NCBI RefSeq assembly: GCF_900220965.1
Contig: NZ_OBQC01000002.1
Location: forward strand, 399,176 to 463,175
Reading direction: 5' to 3'
DNA length: 64,000 bases
DNA from: Ureibacillus acetophenoni
GTDB taxonomy: Bacteria; Bacillota; Bacilli; Bacillales_A; Planococcaceae
Positions within the stretch are counted from its first letter, which is position 1, and every line of letters begins with the position of its first letter. Under the pieces are notes generated by a model. That model was not told the DNA's origin and searched no databases. It worked only from the letters and a program-made list of their open reading frames with translations. The position numbers and the translations under genes were made by a program. Shown in pieces: positions 43,982-59,783 of the stretch.

Positions 43982-44929
43982 TTATTGTCGTTTTCGAGGT
44001 CCAACTAGTTCAAATTCATGTGTCATTGCTATAACTCTTTGAACAATTCGAGAACCTTTAAAGGGATCAATATCACCTTTTGTTATACGGCTATAAAATC
44101 GTTCTAATTCTTCATAATTTAAATTTGAAGAAACGAACAATGGTAAATGATTATTCATTCGATAATTTAAAATGGAACCTAGTACTTCATCTCTTGTCCA
44201 TTCAGAGTTTGCTTCAGCACCTAAATCGTCTAGCATTAAAACTGGCACTTTTTTTATAAAGTCTATTTTTTCCTCATAAGTACCATCATCAAGACTCGAT
44301 TTCAATTCACGGAAAAATTCAGGTACAAAAACAACCGCAGTTTGAACTTTTAATTTAATAAATTCATTTGCTAAAGCACCTAGTATATAAGTTTTACCTG
44401 TTCCGTATAGTCCATGTAAGTACAACCCTTTTCTAGGCAGTTCATTTGTTGCTTTATATATACTAATAAAATCTGCAGCATAATCAGCTATTTGTAGGCG
44501 AGATTTTGTATTCATTTCCATATTTTCTAAACTTGCCTCTAATATTTCAGGCGACATATGGAAACTTCTTAACATACGCTTTACTTCGCGTTGCTCGTCT
44601 TCAACTAATTTTTGCTGACAAGGAACATAATTTAACTCTACTTTTCCATTTCGAATTGCAAATGTTGGGATAAACCCATTTAAATAATTCGTACATTGAT
44701 CTGTCCCTTGCGCTCCGCAGCAAGTTCTAGATTGATTAATATATTCATGGAAAGTAGTTAAATTTTGTTGGATAAAATCCTCAGTTACATTTAAATCGGA
44801 ATCATTCAGTAATTTTTGAATTTCCGGATGTTCTACTATTTCTTTTTTCATCTTTTCATAACGTTCTTGAAAAGATGGAATATTTGCCACTCGTTTAAGG
44901 GCTTCACTTATTGGTTCGATGTTACTCAC
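43982..44929 (-). CDS. dnaI: Helicase loader DnaI
   Basis: 315 aa, GTG start 4 bp after dnaB. The N-terminal zinc-binding domain has CCGAQGTDQC (about 69-78) and CQQKL. The AAA+ domain has Walker A YLHGLYGTGKTY (about 168), Walker B VPVLMLDDLGAE, sensor SSNLNYEEL and the arginine finger region GSRIVQRV. DnaI loads the DnaC helicase ring with DnaB and DnaD at oriC and stalled forks. Same operon order as B. subtilis. Confidence 0.97.
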   Translation of the reverse strand: MSNIEPISEALKRVANIPSFQERYEKMKKEIVEHPEIQKLLNDSDLNVTEDFIQQNLTTFHEYINQSRTCCGAQGTDQCTNYLNGFIPTFAIRNGKVELNYVPCQQKLVEDEQREVKRMLRSFHMSPEILEASLENMEMNTKSRLQIADYAADFISIYKATNELPRKGLYLHGLYGTGKTYILGALANEFIKLKVQTAVVFVPEFFRELKSSLDDGTYEEKIDFIKKVPVLMLDDLGAEANSEWTRDEVLGSILNYRMNNHLPLFVSSNLNYEELERFYSRITKGDIDPFKGSRIVQRVIAMTHEFELVGPRKRQ

Positions 44930-44933
44930 CTAC

Positions 44934-47678
44934 TTAATTCTTATTCCCTAACTTTTCTAAAATACGTTGACGCTCTTTTTCAAAGTCGATTTGATCATCA
45001 TGTTCTTCTTTGAACTCTTCAGCAGACTTATTTCGATCATTAAACCATTTTGGTATAGGCATAACCTGTTTTGTTCCATAAGGATTAAGCTCTTTTTCCT
45101 TCTGTCTTTGTCTACGACTTTCAACAGATTCCTTCGCTATTTCAAACGCTTGGCTAGTAGTTACAATCCCTCTATATCGCCAATCAGCTGCAATTGTTTC
45201 TGTAAATTTTGTAGGGAGTTTCCCGTCATTTACTTCCAACACATATTCAACTAATACATTCGCAACCCCTACTGGCAACTCGAAACGGTTAACTAATGAT
45301 TCTGCCAAACGAACATGCTGTCCGTAAGGTTCAATCCCGTTATTTATGTTCTTTAAAAACTGGTATGGCGTTACGTTTTCATATTTTGCATATGAAGCAT
45401 CCATTTGGCGCTCATTATTTAAGCTAGTGAGTTTATCTTCTGTAATTGTTGGAATGTATCCAACTTTTTCACGGAACTCGTTTGCCTTCTCTTGACTTTC
45501 AATATTATTTTTCGCCTGTTCAACTGTTTGAATTTGTTTATTACGCCAATCGTTTGCAATGACTTCCACATACTTCTTCGGTAATTGACCAGATTTTAAC
45601 GTATGAACATATTCTATCAAAACATTGGTTACCCCAACGGATAATCCAAATTTTAATACTAAGCTTTCGGCTAAACGAACATGAGAAGATAGTGGTTCCA
45701 TCCCTTTATTTAAATATTTTAAGAACTCATATGGAGTAAGACTAGCATACCCTTGCCATTCCGCTCGAACTGTTTCCACTTTAGCAATCGATTCTGGAGT
45801 AATTTTAGGTATATAGCCAAGTTTTTTGTGCATTTCTTTTGCTTCATTTTGTTGTAGTACATAATCAATGGCACTTTGAGCTGAGTTAATTCCTAATTGT
45901 CTCCAGTTACTTGCTATCGTGTCTACTAATCGTTTTGGGAACTGTCCATTATGCGTTGTTAATACATACTCAGTTAACACGTTTACTACACCTACAGGCA
46001 ATCCATAAACAACAACTAAATCTTCCGCTAACTTCACAGTCATTGGGAACGGCTCATTGCCATTATAATAATTCTTTAGGAACTGGTATGGTGGTGTCAA
46101 TTCATAATACTTATAATCATCATCTAATTCATCTGAAATAGCGATAAATTGCTGTATATTATCTTTCGTAATACGAGCATTAAATAGAGATTCTTTCTTC
46201 GTTTGCTTTTCTTCTTTTGTTTTTTGAATATGATCTAAAGCTTCTTCTGAAGTTTGGATATTTAATGTCATCCAGTTACTTGCAATTGTCTCAACAAACT
46301 TCTTATTCACTTTACCATTTGTTTGTTCAATTGCATATTCCATCAATACATTGACGACTGAAATAGGTAAACCATGGAAGTTAACTAATGATTCTGCTAT
46401 TTTCACAATATAATCAAATGGCTCTTTTCCATCGTTTAAATAACATAAAAACTCATAGACATTATACGAATCATATGGTGATTTCTCTTTATCTAGCACT
46501 TCTGTAAGTTGTGGCGGTTTTTTATTATATTTATCGTGTTCTAATCGAGCAAACTCCATTGCTTCTTTTGCCGTTTGGATATTTTTTCGATTCCAATGGT
46601 CTGCAATCGTTTCAACAAAGTTTTTTGGAAGCTTTTTGTCAGACTGTAACATAACATAATCAATTAATACATTAACAACGCCTGGATTCATTCCATGTTT
46701 GATAAATAAGTTTTCGATTAATTCTCTTATGAATGAAGTAGGTTCTTTGCCATTATTAAGATTTCGAAGATGATCTATCGGACTAGTTGTTTCATAATAA
46801 TTTATAAGTTCTTGTTCTTTCGAATGTTTTTTTTCATTCACTGGTTTTTGTTTTTCGAATGTTTTATCGATCATAGGCAAATCTTTCGAAATGGTTAATT
46901 GATAGTATTCAAGTGCAGCTTTTTTTAAACGTTCATCGGTAATTTTTAAATGTTCATCTAAAGCTAGAATGACTACCTTTTGCATGTCTAATGGTGATAA
47001 TTGATAAAGAAATGCAAGTTTAGCAATCGATTCTCGAACTTCAGGTGTAATTGCACTAGAAGGAACTAATTGCTCGGATAGTCCAGAAAACAATAAATTA
47101 AAATCAAATTGTTGATAGTAGAATGGAACATCTTGTTTCTTACTTTCACCAATTTGAGTCAATTCTTTTGGTACATTTGTATTTACTGGTTTATAAACAT
47201 CAACGAACGTACGAGACACTTCTGTATAAGAATCTAATTTAGTATGTTTTAAGAAACGTTTTTGAAGATTGCGATACGTTTGTTCACCAATCTTACTAAA
47301 AAGAAACATGGATAGTAAGGGATCTTGAAAAAAGCTTTGGGCATCTAACGGTCGAATCAATTCATAAACAAAGAATCTACCGTCCACTGTGTCTTTTCTA
47401 TACGTTCTTAGTAAGCCGATTGCTTCTAATGAAATTCGAGCTTCAAATAGTTTCCCAATAGGCATGTCTAGTAAATTCATTAAATGATAATGATTAAAAG
47501 TTGAAGTTGACTGATTTTCACCTTCAGCCCAAAGTGTGTAGTAAAGGCTGATAGATTCTAATCCAGTTAATGGTTGATAAAATAGCGTGATTAACTGTCG
47601 CTCATGTGCAGACAAAAAATGAGGGATACTAATTTCAAAATGATCCGCAGGTTGTAATTCTTTATACAAATGAACCAT
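44934..47678 (-). CDS. dnaB: Replication initiation protein DnaB with five tandem C-terminal modules
   Basis: 914 aa, versus 472 in B. subtilis. Residues 1-265 match the ordinary N-terminal region (FYQPLTGLESISLYYTLWAE, FDFNLLFSGLSEQLVP). Then the module that occurs once in this place in B. subtilis is repeated five times at about 299-376, 406-484, 529-607, 648-725 and 770-848. Each has the pattern FLxxxNxGxEP, LAExLVxxxGLPxGVxNVLxEY and a F/Y-x-x-x-I-A-x-x-W motif, such as FVETIADHW and FTETIAADW, which is the DNA-binding motif of DnaD/DnaB C-domains. Linkers also recur (GYIPKITPES, GYIPTITEDK). The C-terminus is charged. In relatives DnaB binds DNA and membrane and helps DnaI load the helicase. 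Confidence 0.95.
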   Translation of the reverse strand: MVHLYKELQPADHFEISIPHFLSAHERQLITLFYQPLTGLESISLYYTLWAEGENQSTSTFNHYHLMNLLDMPIGKLFEARISLEAIGLLRTYRKDTVDGRFFVYELIRPLDAQSFFQDPLLSMFLFSKIGEQTYRNLQKRFLKHTKLDSYTEVSRTFVDVYKPVNTNVPKELTQIGESKKQDVPFYYQQFDFNLLFSGLSEQLVPSSAITPEVRESIAKLAFLYQLSPLDMQKVVILALDEHLKITDERLKKAALEYYQLTISKDLPMIDKTFEKQKPVNEKKHSKEQELINYYETTSPIDHLRNLNNGKEPTSFIRELIENLFIKHGMNPGVVNVLIDYVMLQSDKKLPKNFVETIADHWNRKNIQTAKEAMEFARLEHDKYNKKPPQLTEVLDKEKSPYDSYNVYEFLCYLNDGKEPFDYIVKIAESLVNFHGLPISVVNVLMEYAIEQTNGKVNKKFVETIASNWMTLNIQTSEEALDHIQKTKEEKQTKKESLFNARITKDNIQQFIAISDELDDDYKYYELTPPYQFLKNYYNGNEPFPMTVKLAEDLVVVYGLPVGVVNVLTEYVLTTHNGQFPKRLVDTIASNWRQLGINSAQSAIDYVLQQNEAKEMHKKLGYIPKITPESIAKVETVRAEWQGYASLTPYEFLKYLNKGMEPLSSHVRLAESLVLKFGLSVGVTNVLIEYVHTLKSGQLPKKYVEVIANDWRNKQIQTVEQAKNNIESQEKANEFREKVGYIPTITEDKLTSLNNERQMDASYAKYENVTPYQFLKNINNGIEPYGQHVRLAESLVNRFELPVGVANVLVEYVLEVNDGKLPTKFTETIAADWRYRGIVTTSQAFEIAKESVESRRQRQKEKELNPYGTKQVMPIPKWFNDRNKSAEEFKEEHDDQIDFEKERQRILEKLGNKN

Positions 47679-47699: not shown

Positions 47700-48167
47700 T
47701 TATTTTAAATCAGATTGTCGTTGTAAAATTTCTTTTAGTTCTTGAATAAAGACATTAATATCTTTAAATTGACGATAAACTGAGGCAAAACGTACATAAG
47801 CAACTTCATCGATTTTTGCTAAATGATCCATGACCATTTCACCTACTCCATCTGAATGTACTTCTGAATTTCCTATTCTTCTTAATGATTTTTCAATTTC
47901 AATAACGATTTCTTCAAGTTTATGTAATGGTACTGGTCTTTTCTCACAAGCACGAATTAGACCGCGCAAAATCTTTTCTCTACTAAATTCTTCTCTAGAA
48001 CCATCCTTTTTCACAACGATTAAAGGTGTTTCTTCAATTCTCTCAAAAGTAGTAAAACGATAACTGCAAGACTCGCATTCTCTACGTCTACGAATTTCTT
48101 TGTTGTCATCAACTGGTCTTGAGTCAACAACACGAGTACCGTTAAACTGACATGCAGGACATCTCAT
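47700..48167 (-). CDS. nrdR: Transcriptional repressor NrdR
   Basis: 155 aa. An N-terminal zinc ribbon (CPAC at 3-6 and CESC at about 31-34), then [20 protein letters not shown] and an ATP-cone (about 49-139; [17 protein letters not shown]). NrdR senses ATP/dATP and represses ribonucleotide reductase genes by binding NrdR boxes. First gene of nrdR-dnaB-dnaI, 21 bp before dnaB, as in Bacilli. Confidence 0.97.
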
Positions 48168-58827: not shown

Positions 58828-59783
58828 TAGTTATTGCTCCCTTCTGTCACAGGTGGATTTGTGGAAGAGTTTGGTACTAATGGTAAGTACTTCAATGTCT
58901 CACCATCGTCATTCATAATGTAAATTTGTGCATTTGGTAATACTTGTTCTAAAGTTTCAAGAATTAAACGTGTTCTTGTAATTTCTTTACTTTGGCTATA
59001 TTGTTCATATAAACTATTAAATACTGCCACGTCCCCTTCAGCTTGCTGGATACGAGATATTTTATCGGCTTCTGCTTTAGACATGATCGCATTCTTTTCC
59101 CCGTTTGCCTCATTCATTTTTTGGTTTTTATATTTTTCAGCTTCATTTAGTTTTGTTGCTTGTGTTTCACGGGCATCGGTTACAGCTGTAAATGCCTGGC
59201 GAACTTCAGCGTTTGGCACTTCAACGTCCTGTAACTGAACAGCTAATATGTTAATACCAATATCGTAATTATTAACTAACGTAGTTAATAATTCTCTTGT
59301 GTCTATTTCAATCTGCGCTTTTCCATCCGTTAATGCGTCATCAATCTTTGAACTACCAATTACTGAACGAATGGCTGCTGATGTTGCATTATGTAGTATC
59401 GATTTAGGATCGTCTGAGTTAAATAAATATTTCTCTGGATCGGCGATTTTCCATTGTACAACTAAATCTGTTAATACGATATTCTCGTCGCCTGTAATCA
59501 TTTTTGTTGCATTTTCATTACTAATGATTTCGCCATTTTCATCTAGCTTATAACCAAATGTTAAACTAAATGTTTCCCTTGATAATAACTCTACTTTTTG
59601 AATTGGCCAAGGCAGTTTAAAATGCAACCCTGGTTCTGAAACGGTATCATCTGCATGACCGAATGTAATCACTACTGCTTGTTCTGATTCATCGACTGTG
59701 TACCAAGATGTTAGTGCGGCAAGGATTACTAAAATCGCAAATATACCGGAAAAAATTAATGTTAACGTTCTTTTCACGCTCAA
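58827..59783 (-). CDS. hflK: Band-7/prohibitin-type protease modulator HflK
   Basis: 318 aa from a TTG at 59783, 8 nt after GGAGG; the frame is open further upstream but without a ribosome site. One membrane helix (about 6-27), then the SPFH domain (VDESEQAVVITFG, PGLHFKLPWPIQKVE) and a coiled coil (KLNEAEKYKNQKMNEANGEK). It pairs with HflC to control FtsH. hflKC between polA and phoR is not the B. subtilis arrangement, so this is an insertion into the backbone or a lineage trait. Confidence 0.92.
   Translation of the reverse strand: MSVKRTLTLIFSGIFAILVILAALTSWYTVDESEQAVVITFGHADDTVSEPGLHFKLPWPIQKVELLSRETFSLTFGYKLDENGEIISNENATKMITGDENIVLTDLVVQWKIADPEKYLFNSDDPKSILHNATSAAIRSVIGSSKIDDALTDGKAQIEIDTRELLTTLVNNYDIGINILAVQLQDVEVPNAEVRQAFTAVTDARETQATKLNEAEKYKNQKMNEANGEKNAIMSKAEADKISRIQQAEGDVAVFNSLYEQYSQSKEITRTRLILETLEQVLPNAQIYIMNDDGETLKYLPLVPNSSTNPPVTEGSNN

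Follow-up and report, generated by a model that had tools for sequence, protein, structure and literature searches.

In a few related bacteria, the C-terminal domain of the helicase-loading protein DnaB has grown from one copy to five. One such protein is encoded in the stretch of DNA analysed here (the window, 64,000 nucleotides from Ureibacillus acetophenoni), in a genome where a search returned it as the one DnaB match. The reading favored here, given a probability of about one half, is that the four modules added to the protein make up a long, multivalent arm on its DnaI-helicase side, and that the array and a matching DnaI have been exchanged between lineages or have diverged together.

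The dnaB gene of the window (44934..47678, minus strand, as are all features given below) is a single intact ORF, from ATG to stop, between nrdR (47700..48167), its ordinary upstream neighbor, and dnaI (43982..44929), which encodes a helicase loader ATPase of 315 aa. The gene order nrdR-dnaB-dnaI, which is also that of B. subtilis, is normal; the sequence-only reading had called the N-terminal part and the operon normal, which is right for the gene order and wrong for the neighboring DnaI, since the latter is unusually diverged. Pfam DnaB_2 matches five separate stretches of the protein (E 1.3e-51, above the Pfam cut-off), and the NCBIfam DnaB equivalog is matched with E 1.6e-150 (502.1 bits vs. 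a cut-off of 570, and 453.8 vs. 800); with scores of 310–340, three ordinary DnaBs of the family that have a single module are also below the cut-off, which therefore has no discriminating power here. The closest structures are PDB 29km_A (E 5.4e-67, residues 3–384) and 5wtn_A (E 4.3e-45 by sequence), and Foldseek retrieves 5wtn from the full-length model (E 1.1e-12), whose pTM of 0.31 means that the arrangement of the modules is not readable from it. By its domains, gene order and tail, the protein is assigned as the helicase loader DnaB of the chromosome, in a variant with five C-terminal modules and 914 aa instead of one module and about 470 aa.

Residues 1–265 (46884..47678) comprise the N-terminal DDBH1 and the middle domain, according to the alignment to 5wtn/29km and the Foldseek match to 5wtn. 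Module 1 (residues 294–364, 46587..46799) is a canonical C-terminal domain that is hydrophobic where B. subtilis has L364, and it is followed by four modules of the extra type: module 2 (residues 402–470, 46269..46475), module 3 (524–594, 45897..46109), module 4 (644–713, 45540..45749), which was modelled alone, and module 5 (765–834, 45177..45386). The C-terminal tail (residues 866–914, 44937..45083) contains putative DnaI-docking positions according to tail alignments. Sequence profiles and the model of one module predict the DnaD/DnaB domain, DDBH2, for the modules, and no other fold was found, as the sequence-only reading had proposed for its four added copies. It had also placed the copies 107–123 residues apart, and the measured spacings of the cores from 1 to 5 are 108, 122, 120, and 121 residues. 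The DnaB domain layout has been described as DDBH1-DDBH2-DDBH2 (PMC5295017, in part), so that the DDBH2-type domains would total six if the middle domain is counted; the Pfam DnaB_2 profile has no match in that middle domain. Identity among the five modules is 42–59% in protein and 50–60% in DNA, and no module-size repeat was reported by the tandem-repeat finder (whose longest period is 500). The copies are therefore old, and a recent tandem slip is ruled out as their source; together with the purifying selection described below, this bears out the earlier view of an old and maintained expansion.

The survey comprised 261 genomes of the host's GTDB family, and an order-level search gave the same 261. 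Five-module DnaB was found in 20 of them, distributed over Ureibacillus (6/25), Metalysinibacillus (3/3), Metasolibacillus (5/5), and Solibacillus (6/16), the genera being assigned from matching contigs and relatives. The 19 homologues outside the host have 859–929 aa and some come from single-contig assemblies, which rules out a sequencing artefact; an assembly artefact or a split gene is rejected likewise, and all 20 long proteins read have exactly five modules. Another 12 genomes from two further genera possess a two-module DnaB with frames of 576–615 residues (modules counted in nine, three judged by frame length); the nine proteins read (L044–L047 and L069–L073) have 571–609 aa. One-module-sized frames (446–513 aa) occur in 226 genomes, and the 33 in which modules were counted all have one. 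The rest are G014 and G129, which gave no match, and G102, which is fragmented. One of the one-module-sized frames (G247) contains one TAG, and a candidate 771-residue form (G165) proved to be a stop-to-stop frame artefact, the actual ORF having 455 aa and one module. Frames sized for three, four or six modules were not found in the family, where frame length was the sole criterion for most genomes. Scores against a profile of the extra region fall into two well-separated groups, with 20 genomes at 571–669 bits and the next at 121 bits. Two further samples of 398 genomes, one drawn from the class and one from the phylum, gave no score close to the five-module level outside the family. Of 107 relatives in the named collection, 80 loci were kept, 10 with five modules and 70 with a single one; the scan relies on short patterns and missed the five-module forms of Solibacillus. 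The literature listings searched, which lack most subscription papers, contained no account of a DnaB with multiple modules.

Phylogenies point to a common origin of the extra modules and to their movement. A module tree (86 modules, 30 genomes) clusters the first modules with single modules and sets the 52 extras of five-module proteins apart as a clade of their own (100/99); modules 2–5 are thus one derived module type. In the DnaA+DnaD tree of 30 genomes, Solibacillus is held together (100/99) with its five-module species nested inside, and the five-module Ureibacillus species fall in two places; this species tree rejects a single five-module clade (p 3.4e-6) as well as one Ureibacillus five-module clade (p 1.1e-10), and the form is spread over five lineages that it does not unite. 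Conversely, the module 1 tree groups all 15 five-module rows (87/90, the branch not being starred) and rejects the species clades of Solibacillus (p 1.6e-4) and Ureibacillus (p 0.026), and the tree of the DnaB N-terminus rejects both the Solibacillus clade (p 1.2e-5) and a single five-module clade (p 0.007). The DnaI tree leans as module 1 does (63/94), but no species clade is rejected (p 0.07–0.19). Because of these conflicts with the species tree, the five-module array appears to have been exchanged between lineages.

Two cases locate the possible exchanges more closely. In the clade of the window, the DnaB N-terminus is at 80% to the species sister (G011) and 67% to the other Ureibacillus five-module clade, whereas module 1 switches to 62% and 77%, respectively, which suggests a recombination point near DnaB residues 263–293. 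Between the two forms in Solibacillus (L063 vs. L074), the nucleotide match is 82% up to the nrdR stop codon, is absent over dnaB, and resumes inside dnaI and at thrS; dnaB was apparently replaced in place. The best account of these patterns would be that the array was exchanged together with some or all of dnaB, and perhaps with dnaI, and unequal rates are another possibility. For position-for-position homology between the Ureibacillus/Metalysinibacillus and the Metasolibacillus/Solibacillus arrays, the rejection is weak at modules 2 and 3 (p 0.03 for both) and there is none at modules 4 and 5 (p 0.055 and 0.10), and the module cross-scores are not diagonal. Position-specific module identity is kept between Metasolibacillus and Solibacillus, and between Ureibacillus and Metalysinibacillus for modules 1, 2, 3, and 5. 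A donor outside the family was considered for the Solibacillus form and rejected, the nearest N-terminus being that of Metasolibacillus (249 bits, the next 180, among the class-sample matches listed). A phage or plasmid source of the array was rejected as well: matches were found in 2 of 50,697 phage and 4 of 72,556 plasmid records, none over more than 80% of the query, and a viral-contig scan returned no relative of the array. An Anoxybacillus plasmid (NZ_CP015439.1, 258 kb) carries at 59052–59291 a protein annotated as replication initiation and membrane attachment family protein.

The neighboring gene has changed too. In a baseline of 12 single-module genomes, DnaI identity tracks helicase identity (66 pairs, residual SD 4.6, lowest -8.1), and 15 of the 20 five-module genomes were compared with this line. 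The mean shortfall of DnaI from the line is 22–28 points in both Ureibacillus clades and in Solibacillus and 11–12 points in Metasolibacillus. In Metalysinibacillus, it is -3.6 to -8.3, within or near the single-module scatter, so that the link of the array to DnaI divergence holds in four of the five lineages, with Metalysinibacillus as the exception; two two-module genomes gave -7.3 and -12.6. Against the nearest single-module relative, DnaI is at 42–45% in Solibacillus and the window's clade (77–83% expected), 53–54% in the second Ureibacillus clade (82–83% expected), and 63–65% in Metasolibacillus (78–79% expected), and it is thus unusually diverged in the same four lineages. In sister comparisons, DnaA, the helicase, and NrdR are at 88–97%. 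Between five- and single-module Solibacillus species, DnaA (95%), the helicase (96%), and NrdR (92%) stand in contrast to DnaI (45%), the DnaB N-terminus (35%), and module 1 (27%). No changed DnaA, DnaD or replicative helicase was seen in the five-module genomes compared, where NrdR is ordinary, and the genome of the window carries its own normal dnaD elsewhere. The divergence of DnaI could be hitchhiking of a neighboring gene. In most loci read, the DnaI of single-module Ureibacillus and Solibacillus (e.g., L013 and L074) lacks an N-terminal MEPI stretch and dnaI starts about 31–56 bases past dnaB; in most five-module genomes, the MEPI stretch is kept and the dnaB-dnaI junction is a few bases long or overlapping.

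The position of the extra modules within the protein suggests where they may act. In B. subtilis, DnaD binding is reduced by changes at L315, L350, Y360, and L364 of the DnaB C-terminal domain, and DnaI binding by changes at K456, M459, M460, and L466 of the DnaB tail, docking sites that rest on two-hybrid data and AlphaFold3 models (PMC13326638, in part). The L364 position, part of the groove for the DnaD tail in B. subtilis, is hydrophobic in 20/20 first modules (L or M) and 33/33 single modules and in 0/80 extra modules, counts that include near-identical genomes, above all the six of Solibacillus, and are not independent; the groove residue Y360 is absent from all 151 modules read, so that the argument on the DnaD groove rests mainly on one position. 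The DnaD tail YNWL is kept in 29 of the 30 genomes read, the exception being a two-module genome with an odd DnaD frame (G048). In that genome (L238), the DnaD match is in two pieces with an internal stop, and a 306-residue frame lacks the usual YNWL. At the other end, R903, I906, and L907 of the window's DnaB align with K456, M459, and M460 in the tail, the positions being conserved. The four extra modules are placed between module 1, with its L364 position, and these tail positions. DnaD would still dock on module 1 and DnaI on the C-terminal tail, and the extra modules would thus be a long arm, multivalent and placed between these docking sites, which may act on the side of DnaI and the helicase through contacts with either of them or with the single-stranded DNA during loading, the array and its DnaI having possibly been exchanged or having diverged together.

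The sequence-only reading had seen five DNA-binding modules, and it is conceivable, although doubtful, that all five engage DNA, single- or double-stranded, at the same time and so hold the origin or remodel it. The modules are indeed of the DDBH2 type, and the aromatic-x3-I-x3-W motif, tied to DNA binding in DnaD/DnaB (PMC5295017 and PMC6393240, both in part), had been read in each of the four added copies; it is exact in four of the five modules, and module 3 has Leu for the aromatic but keeps I and W. Across the 20 five-module proteins, however, the exact motif is present in just 46 of 100 modules (8/20 first and 38/80 extra modules, compared to 32/33 single modules) and the W is gone from 24 of the 80 extra ones, which weakens a pure DNA-binding reading, as does the net charge of the module cores (-5 to +2 in five proteins). 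A more recent study does not settle what the residues around this DnaB motif do and cites oligomerisation (PMC13326638, in part). The origin does not follow the array either: in 30 genomes (oriC loci L179–L208), the dnaA-dnaN gap is 168–190 bp with five modules and 156–182 bp otherwise, and near-consensus DnaA boxes in the gap number 3–4 (five-module) vs. 4–5 (single-module) in Ureibacillus and 4 vs. 3 in Solibacillus. With no consistent shift in gap length or box count in these genomes, and with DnaA and DnaD unremarkable, an altered oriC is rejected as a correlate of the array and the earlier idea of a ruler at oriC is not upheld. It seems improbable, too, that module number matters little and that the array is a tolerated length, grown in a near-neutral way between the docking ends. 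The loss of conserved residues from the extra modules, the sufficiency of one module in most relatives, and the looser linkers 1–2 and 2–3 (dN/dS 0.11–0.29; 0.02–0.06 in linker 3–4, and saturated in linker 4–5) would fit such a passive spacer. Yet the number is exactly five in every long protein read, intermediate or larger sizes are missing from frames mostly judged by length, module identities are kept by position as noted above, and purifying selection acts on every module in Ureibacillus, where per-module dN/dS is 0.006–0.144 in 19 of 20 comparisons over four genome pairs (dS being saturated in the other one); dS is near saturation, which makes these values rough and indicative of purifying selection and no more.

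That an ancestral five-module form was lost repeatedly rather than exchanged is about as improbable as the passive spacer. The one ancestry of all extra modules would agree with it, as would the DnaI tree, where species clades are not rejected, but the module of single-module proteins clusters with its counterparts in other genera rather than with module 1 of five-module congeners, and DnaI leans the same way. Still less credible is an escape from phage hijacking, by which the DnaB array and DnaI would have diverged so that prophage mimics of the DnaB tail cannot recruit the host DnaI. Prophage-type DnaD-like loaders with a near-identical DnaB tail are encoded in the single-module Ureibacillus G004 and G009 (L033 1498–2535, minus; L034 775–1734, plus; L036 1498–2202, minus), and these tails look like mimics of the DnaI-docking site that would recruit the host DnaI; however, the evidence amounts to three proteins in two genomes, and the tail is little changed in the Ureibacillus five-module DnaBs, so that the mimics should still fit unless DnaI changed. 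A more speculative and rather unlikely version of the exchange makes dnaB5-dnaI an alternative helicase-loading cassette, in which six DDBH2 domains per DnaB chain, one degenerate and five full if the count is true, would serve or wrap the six DnaI subunits, the number five being set by ring stoichiometry and DnaI having co-evolved. The multivalent arm is the reading retained. With four modules placed between the docking positions in several lineages, mostly with a changed DnaI, arm length, module number, and DnaB-DnaI matching are now testable by swap and deletion. The findings also suggest that in-place replacement between genera can affect a part of the initiation machine on which B. subtilis depends for viability.

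How two helicases are loaded at one origin is still an open question in Firmicutes, and the model proposed for B. subtilis has extended DnaB chains with tails that reach two DnaI-helicase complexes (PMC13326638, in part). The DnaB of that species (29km; NAR 2026, PMC13326638, in part) resembles the window's protein in its DDBH1, its middle domain, a DDBH2 whose L364 position is hydrophobic, and the DnaI-docking positions of its C-terminal tail. It differs in having one C-terminal module and 472 aa instead of five modules and 914 aa, and thus in the absence of the four derived modules that the window's protein carries between the two docking sites. DnaD (DDBH1-DDBH2; crystal structures 2zc2 and 2i5u, integrative model 9a5c) likewise has one DDBH2. 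The two-module DnaB of the same family has its C-terminal domain duplicated in the same gene and place, but it is separate from the five-module form by tree, and its second module, unlike the extra modules of the five-module proteins, keeps the hydrophobic groove residue in 9/9 and the exact motif in 9/9.
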